Source: Nitrospiraceae bacterium (GTDB lineage: Bacteria; Nitrospirota; Nitrospiria; Nitrospirales; Nitrospiraceae). From it: a stretch of DNA of 34,433 nt. How positions within the stretch are numbered: the stretch's first letter is position 1; each line of letters opens with the position of its first letter. The notes below the pieces were generated by a model. It was not told the DNA's origin. It searched no databases and worked only from the letters and a program-made list of their open reading frames with translations. Positions 31,206-31,905 of the stretch are shown one piece after another. Made by a program: the position numbers and the translations under genes. The stretch is taken from NCBI GenBank assembly GCA_005799365.1, contig SYGV01000141.1, forward strand, positions 1 through 34,433. Reading direction: 5' to 3'.

Positions 31206-31234
31206 TTGACAAGCCTCTCATGATTCGCTATAAA
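31206..31234 (+). promoter_or_regulatory. Near-consensus sigma70 promoter
   Basis: TTGACA (31206-31211), 17-nt spacer, TATAAA (31229-31234), 11/12 matches to consensus. Confidence 0.75.
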
Positions 31235-31262
31235 GCAAGCATGCTCGCAAGGAGTCTTGCTT

Positions 31263-31769
31263 GTGGAAGAACTAAAAGACATTCTGGTCGGCCTTGAACA
31301 GCGTATCAATGCCTATAAGACCCGCCTGCAGGAATTGGAGAAAAAGCGGGGCCGGCTTGAGGACGAGATCGCCACGATCAAGAAATACCTCGAACTCGCT
31401 GAAACTCTCTACCGCGTGGAAGCCGACAAGGCCAAGCTCGCCAGCCTGTCCAGCCAAATCATCACCGATGACAAGGGCCCGCGCCTGCTGCCGATGGACG
31501 TCACCGATCAATCGCGCGAGATCCTCCTGGGTCGGAGCAAGTATGTCACCATGAGCGTGCCCGAGGCCGCCCATCAGATTTTACGTGAAGCGAGGCGCTC
31601 AATGCATGCGAAGGAGTTGGTCCAGCGGTTGATTGAGGGAGGCATGCAGATTAAGGGGAAAACGCCTCTGACCTCCGTGGCCACCTCGCTCAAGCGGGAC
31701 CGGCGGTTCAAGAAGGTAGGGCCCAATACGTTTGACCTTCTCGATGAAGCATTAACGAAGGCGGTGTAA
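31263..31769 (+). CDS. Coiled-coil protein with C-terminal HARE-HTH-like winged helix
   Basis: GTG start with AAGGAG 8 nt upstream; N-terminal coiled coil (LEQRINAYKTRLQELEKKRGRLEDEIATIKKYLELAETLY); C-terminal MSVPEAAHQILREARRSMHAKELVQRLIEGGMQIKGKTPLTSVATSLKRDRRFKKVGPNTFDLLD. Confidence 0.8.
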   Translation: MEELKDILVGLEQRINAYKTRLQELEKKRGRLEDEIATIKKYLELAETLYRVEADKAKLASLSSQIITDDKGPRLLPMDVTDQSREILLGRSKYVTMSVPEAAHQILREARRSMHAKELVQRLIEGGMQIKGKTPLTSVATSLKRDRRFKKVGPNTFDLLDEALTKAV

Positions 31770-31817
31770 ACGCTTCGACCAGTTTCCGCCAAGAGTCGAT
31801 GAAAGGAGGTGAGCGCT

Positions 31818-31856
31818 TTGGCAACGAAGAAGGCAGCGAAGAAGAAAAAGAAGTAA
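31818..31856 (+). CDS. 12-codon lysine-rich micropeptide MATKKAAKKKKK (TTG start)
   Basis: AAAGGAGGTGA (31802-31812) is a full-length anti-SD complement, 8 nt from TTG; ORF ttg gca acg aag aag gca gcg aag aag aaa aag aag taa. Confidence 0.6.
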   Translation: MATKKAAKKKKK

Positions 31857-31871
31857 CCCCTCCACGGTTAC

Positions 31872-31905
31872 GGCGCCGGGGGCAAGGCCACTTGCTCCCG
31901 GCGCC
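31872..31905 (+). terminator. Strong hairpin, terminator-like between convergent genes
   Basis: GGCGCCGGGGGCAAG-GCCA-CTTGCTCCCGGCGCC: 15-bp stem with one G-T pair, tetraloop; only a short weak T stretch follows. Confidence 0.65.

Follow-up and report, generated by a model that had tools for sequence, protein, structure and literature searches.

Bacterial proteins that resemble histone H1, among them Hc1 and Hc2 of Chlamydia, the tails of AlgP and PhaF in Pseudomonas and the H1-like proteins of Bordetella and Burkholderia, are rich in lysine, alanine and proline, contain almost no acidic residues, are presumably disordered and vary in repeat number between relatives. AlgP, which has an H1-like C-terminal domain rich in KPAA repeats, associates with polyphosphate (polyP) granules and is required for their even spacing (PMC9239181). 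Rok of Bacillus subtilis is a silencer consisting of a coiled coil and a winged helix, and the RNA polymerase (RNAP) delta subunit (RpoE) carries a HARE-HTH winged-helix domain. The locus described here combines a gene for a HARE-HTH protein that has the same overall architecture as Rok with a downstream gene of 12 codons, which belongs to a peptide family with the H1-like properties listed above. In the papers searched, we found no description of HARE-HTH proteins or of lysine-rich or H1-like proteins in connection with Nitrospira.

Layout of the locus

The window, meaning the whole stretch of 34,433 nucleotides analyzed, corresponds to contig 127 in a genome assembly of 1.63 Mb that is 77% complete and has Nitrospira MAGs as its nearest named relatives. 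The locus is also present in N. moscoviensis and Candidatus N. defluvii, and many of the genomes compared are metagenome assemblies. All elements lie on the forward strand, and those named in the preliminary description were confirmed at the positions given there. Direct reading places a sigma-70-type promoter, TTGACA-N17-TATAAA, at 31206–31234 (TTGACA at 31206–31211, TATAAA at 31229–31234), with the putative operator GCAAGCATGCTC (family consensus GCAAGCATGCTT) just 3′ of the −10 box at 31235–31246. An inverted repeat, AAGCAAG-N16-CTTGCTT (31233–31262), spans the expected transcription start and the ribosome-binding site of the HARE-HTH gene. That gene (31263–31769) starts with GTG and encodes a protein of 168 amino acids, a putative autoregulator with a coiled coil and a C-terminal HARE-HTH winged helix. 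Its stop codon is followed after 48 nt by the TTG start of the peptide gene MATKKAAKKKKK at 31818–31856, which has 12 codons, ends with TAA and translates as (M)ATKKAAKKKKK-stop. The near-perfect Shine-Dalgarno (SD) sequence AAAGGAGGTGA of this gene lies at 31802–31812, with 8 nt between GGAGG and TTG. A hairpin with a 15-bp stem and a GCCA loop (31872–31905) forms the 3′ end of the operon before the convergent lpxC gene, as a terminator or an mRNA-end structure.

Conservation of the peptide gene

Genes this short fall under annotation cut-offs. The preliminary description took the open reading frame (ORF) to be real but easily overlooked owing to its size, and both points are supported. Each of the 79 relatives that have a full-length HARE-HTH gene carries the ORF, open, behind it (78 found by script, and L048, which contains a run of N, by eye), and no relative examined has kept the HARE-HTH gene while losing the SD sequence or the lysine-rich frame. 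Among named Nitrospira loci, represented by the nearest 80 listed in one contig scan, it was found in 79, and the contig of the 80th ends 46 nt past the HARE-HTH stop codon. The SD consensus GG(A/G)GGTGA and its approximately constant spacing extend to relatives that have lost HARE-HTH. The distance from the HARE-HTH stop codon to the ORF takes all three values modulo 3 across relatives, and the ORF is still open.

Variation within the frame preserves the peptide. An identical peptide is encoded in 45 loci by 20 different DNA sequences, and synonymous substitutions account for 50 of 74 codon changes, where 27% would be expected (p = 2e-13, a value to be taken as indicative, since the counting used minimum spanning trees built from related sequences). 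Where the TTG start has changed to TTA (L232), codon 3 has become ATG, providing a new in-frame start two codons on. A pattern of SD, start codon and KKxxKK, applied to 61 related genomes, has a single match in the window's genome, at this ORF, and thus identifies no paralogue there, while the reversed control pattern has zero matches in the 61 genomes. Tandem copies of the peptide gene, two each and every copy with its own SD sequence, occur in L009 (MAAKKKAKKKR and MAAKKKAKKKKK, 3′ of HARE-HTH) and L046 (MPAKKKAAKKKR and MPAKKKAAKKKK), and we count these as speaking for selection on copy number. Conservation, synonymous bias and the absence of reversed-pattern matches rule out a chance ORF, and on these comparative grounds we are almost certain that the 12 codons form a protein-coding gene under purifying selection.

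Translation from an in-frame GTG 9 nt upstream of the TTG was considered and rejected, as this codon overlaps the SD sequence and in L010 lies in another frame. TTG is the start codon in each of the 79 named loci and in those outgroup loci that were read, so that a weak start is unusually constant beside a very strong SD sequence. An Rfam search of the region gave no match to a known RNA family. Apart from the HARE-HTH locus, one genome has another SD sequence with a lysine-rich frame, MAAAKKLAKK... (G067:C3:40924-40965).

Longer orthologues resemble histone H1 tails

The length of the peptide varies in frame from 11 to 64 residues across most of the order, with 11–18 amino acids in the window's family, 11–13 in family f2 and 24–64 in family f3, and reaches 113 outside it, where 16 loci from other families of the class and from family f21 outside the class encode 14–113 amino acids. 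On sequence comparison, the window's 12-codon gene is shown to correspond to the longer H1-tail-like gene behind the same HARE-HTH gene in other families of the class and in a single family of the phylum beyond it. The direction of change would be shortening in the Nitrospira family, which is the simpler one because the outgroups mostly carry the longer form.

The histone-tail-like character that had been proposed for the peptide is made plain by the long orthologues, which are rich in lysine, alanine and proline (MATAKKKAPAKKAAKKKAPAKK..., with repeats KKAAKKKAPAKK). The 44 distinct peptides of the order contain 50% lysine, 32% alanine and 8% proline, and aspartate or glutamate occurs in just two of the 44 frames as called. 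The family as a whole thus has the composition of an H1 tail (K/A/P-rich, variable repeats, no acidic residues), although the 12-mer itself is without proline. Profile tests were run with long orthologues, as the 12-mer is under the 20-residue limit. The longest one (L217, 113 amino acids) resembles Pfam HC2 (PF07382) with E = 7e-5 and 23.4 bits against a cut-off of 40. With NF038053 (Burkholderia H1-like), it scores 17.6 and a 64-residue orthologue scores 19.8, against a cut-off of 80. These scores lie below the curated cut-offs, so we claim resemblance and not family membership. Since low-complexity K/A/P sequence can arise convergently, the likeness to H1 is one of composition rather than proven descent.

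The peptide gene outlasts its neighbor

In six or seven independent lineages, the HARE-HTH gene has decayed while SD sequence, ORF and hairpin are intact. A profile search found no HARE-HTH in G004, G015, G019, G023, G025, G034 and G044, which have all three of these elements. Only fragments of HARE-HTH are left in G014, G018, G066 and G074, and the copy in G313 is broken; the ORF is kept in all five. Remnants can be recognized in several of the loci that have lost HARE-HTH, as in L093 (MEGLADSLIGFEQRINAS...). A tree of lpxC gives eight changes of state for HARE-HTH and one for the ORF; within the window's family alone the numbers are seven and one, or six and one without L082, a doubtful case whose lone frameshift may stem from faulty assembly. 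The one loss of the ORF, in a clade comprising g5 and g7, occurred together with HARE-HTH. Looser peptide patterns detected no peptide gene in this clade, nor in five genomes of the class without HARE-HTH. L234 has the same flanking genes with no operon between them. In G254, G359, G372 and G379, which are also without an lpxC match, the failure to find the peptide gene may be due to assembly gaps or sequence divergence.

The peptide gene is therefore the more durable part of the locus, and because it is kept where the neighboring HARE-HTH gene has decayed, the peptide probably serves a separate function. The preliminary description had paired the two products, possibly in a nucleoid- or RNAP-associated complex. 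The pairing of the genes stands as linkage (79/79), which is tight among families of the class as well as in a family of the phylum outside the class, and the winged helix does resemble those of RNAP delta and the Rok DNA-binding domain, at non-significant E-values. Dependence of the peptide on HARE-HTH is not supported, given the lineages in which the peptide gene has outlived it, and no fused form was seen among the loci read. We regard a joint complex as improbable.

The HARE-HTH protein as a putative autorepressor

The HARE-HTH domain (PF05066) occupies residues 97–159 of the protein (E = 1.1e-12; 48.6 bits against a gathering score of 25.9), and this is the only PF05066 site in the window's genome at 77% completeness. 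Orthologues of the gene were found in 85 of 100 relatives. An AlphaFold model (mean pLDDT 80) predicts one long helix at residues 2–69 and a winged helix at about 82–159. Foldseek returned winged-helix likenesses, including Z-alpha, Rok and RNAP delta, none with E ≤ 0.001, and a profile of the protein matched essentially coiled coils alone among PDB sequences. Identity with the delta subunit is not supported, as the NCBIfam delta model TIGR04567 scores 15 bits, far under its cut-off of 42, and the domain is C-terminal with no acidic tail behind it. One contig (JABMDK010000011.1; L179 and L200) carries a pair of HARE-HTH genes separated by about 7.7 kb, with MATKKAAKKKKK behind each. Many f3 genomes encode a second, distant protein with a weak match, an open frame of 270–307 amino acids with about 35% identity over query residues 18–125 (for example G070:C29:31537-31845).

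Across 79 distinct promoters of the family with HARE-HTH, the −35 and −10 boxes match their consensus at means of 5.8/6 and 5.7/6, and both are mostly kept in nine loci that have lost HARE-HTH (5.0/6 and 5.3/6). A strict promoter scanner missed the window's promoter because it demanded a −10 hexamer ending in T, but the promoter is nonetheless conserved in relatives. The match to the GCAAGCATGCTT palindrome averages 11.3/12 in the 79 promoters versus 5.2/12 in the nine loci (p = 1e-7, uncorrected for kinship). For L093 the script settled on a pseudo-promoter further upstream, and the promoter that is probably correct, with GCAGGCACACTC, is also without the palindrome. Phylogenetically independent co-loss of operator and HARE-HTH amounts to few events, with two to three concordant pairs and no pair against (p = 0.25 by sign test), and L099 (10/12) and L082 (9/12) retain much of the palindrome. 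The exact 15-mer operator motif, present in 9 of 60 genomes, occurs there at one site per genome, only at this promoter. Upstream AAGCA/TGCTT words are strongly enriched over shuffles in f1 and f3.

From this comparison of promoters, the HARE-HTH protein is probably the operon's own regulator, an autorepressor acting through the putative operator. With the palindrome fading in several lineages that have lost HARE-HTH but kept the promoter, an autoregulator fits better than a structural partner. The protein could instead act globally as a nucleoid protein like Rok or H-NS, or be a factor associated with RNAP, the palindrome at +1 being a promoter or discriminator feature. The coiled coil with a winged helix recalls Rok, and Rok and RNAP delta are among the top Foldseek matches (E 0.02–0.07). 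We consider this doubtful, given that the exact palindrome is confined to this promoter in the genomes having it, that it fades in most HARE-lost lineages retaining −35 and −10, and that a delta-like acidic tail is missing.

The 3′ hairpin and readings at the nucleic acid level

The hairpin at 31872–31905 has a perfect 15-bp stem with a free energy of −34.9 kcal/mol (z = −5.1), and none of 200 shuffles was as stable. Among 44 distinct relatives whose loop has four bases, paired changes (A-T/G-C and C-G/T-A) occur in the stem. The window has no U-tract behind the hairpin, which in this genome therefore departs from a textbook intrinsic terminator. As a T-rich tail follows in only 24 of 79 relatives by script, the hairpin may be an mRNA-end or a two-way terminator structure. 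The loop is mostly of the GYYA type, with GCCA the commonest (50/79), an inverted form (TGGC) in L008 and an invariant first G-C pair in the four-base-loop set. Adjacency to lpxC is common to the window's family, f2 (L046, L070, L072 and L077) and most class-level outgroup loci (L210–L225).

With lpxC convergent in the window and many relatives, the lysine codons might be no more than the pyrimidine tract of the minus strand, serving as the T-tract of an lpxC terminator in an RNA or DNA element to which the peptide is irrelevant; the minus strand does have a small hairpin followed by TTCTTTTTCT. We rejected this as very improbable. The ORF persists with SD sequence and start in the fetched f3 and f4 loci, where no lpxC neighbor was found, and GCN and CCN codons interrupt the tract in longer forms. 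Changes preserve the peptide, including the start shift in L232, and most of the relatives read lack the small minus-strand hairpin.

An effect of the lysine run on translation or mRNA, which the preliminary description offered as an alternative, is likewise disfavored by the peptide-preserving variation, by the lack of a same-direction gene immediately downstream and by codon choice. AAA makes up 14% of lysine codons in the peptide ORFs versus 42% in the HARE-HTH genes of the same family, a choice better suited to smooth translation than to stalling. This avoidance, together with the rarity of A6 runs (4/79 ORFs), led us to reject programmed stalling or slippage on poly-A lysine codons. A leader peptide or attenuator was also rejected, since the ORF is the last on its strand before the hairpin and convergent lpxC, leaving no downstream gene to regulate.

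A proposed role and comparison with known systems

We lean towards an autoregulated operon with a minimal, detached H1-like polycationic tail as its product, binding nucleic acid or another polyanion. The coiled-coil HARE-HTH protein would bind the palindrome over its own transcription start and repress the operon. Through its charge the peptide would bind polyanions, with chromosomal DNA the most likely target and RNA a possible one, and would neutralize or softly compact the DNA. Seven lysines and no acidic residue leave hardly any activity other than polyanion binding. DNA is favored as the target because the orthologues are H1-tail-like and the neighbor is a DNA-binding protein. Complexes of synthetic K8 are reported to be less stable than those of K16 or longer (PMC4991294), so a peptide this short would be expected to be a weak, counter-ion-like binder and not a stable condenser.

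The main alternative target, by analogy with AlgP and its KPAA-rich tail proposed to act in granule spacing (PMC9239181), would be polyP; polyP granules or ribosomal RNA might be bound instead of chromosomal DNA, as a short polycation is indiscriminate among polyanions. We hold this to be unlikely, as the peptide has neither the folded N-terminal domain of AlgP nor its repeats of about 150 residues, and nothing at the locus points to polyP. If chromosomal DNA is the target, we would tentatively see in the peptide a bacterial chromatin micro-protein of about 9–13 residues, an H1-like tail worn down to one positive patch and encoded by a separate gene with a dedicated autorepressor, which might place this gene among the smallest conserved ones known for a non-leader protein.

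The peptide gene is conserved through an ecologically major group, the nitrite-oxidizing and comammox Nitrospira, and has persisted although its operon partner was lost repeatedly. Lengths at this one orthologous position run from 113 down to about 10 residues and form a natural titration of the minimal length at which a histone-like tail is still kept, and this series makes a general question on polycationic tails directly testable. A bacterial HARE-HTH protein also gains a probable role as a local autoregulator.

Compared with the RNAP delta subunit, to which it has a weak fold likeness by Foldseek, the protein carries its HARE-HTH domain at the C-terminus (97–159) behind a long coiled coil and is without the acidic tail. 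With Rok it has no significant sequence likeness, and the Foldseek match to the Rok DNA-binding domain (E = 0.03) is not significant; in contrast to the many AT-rich targets of Rok, the evidence here suggests one dedicated site. The window's peptide differs from the H1-like proteins of Chlamydia, Pseudomonas, Bordetella and Burkholderia in its length of 12 amino acids, practically without repeats and without a folded domain, and in being encoded in an operon with a HARE-HTH gene.
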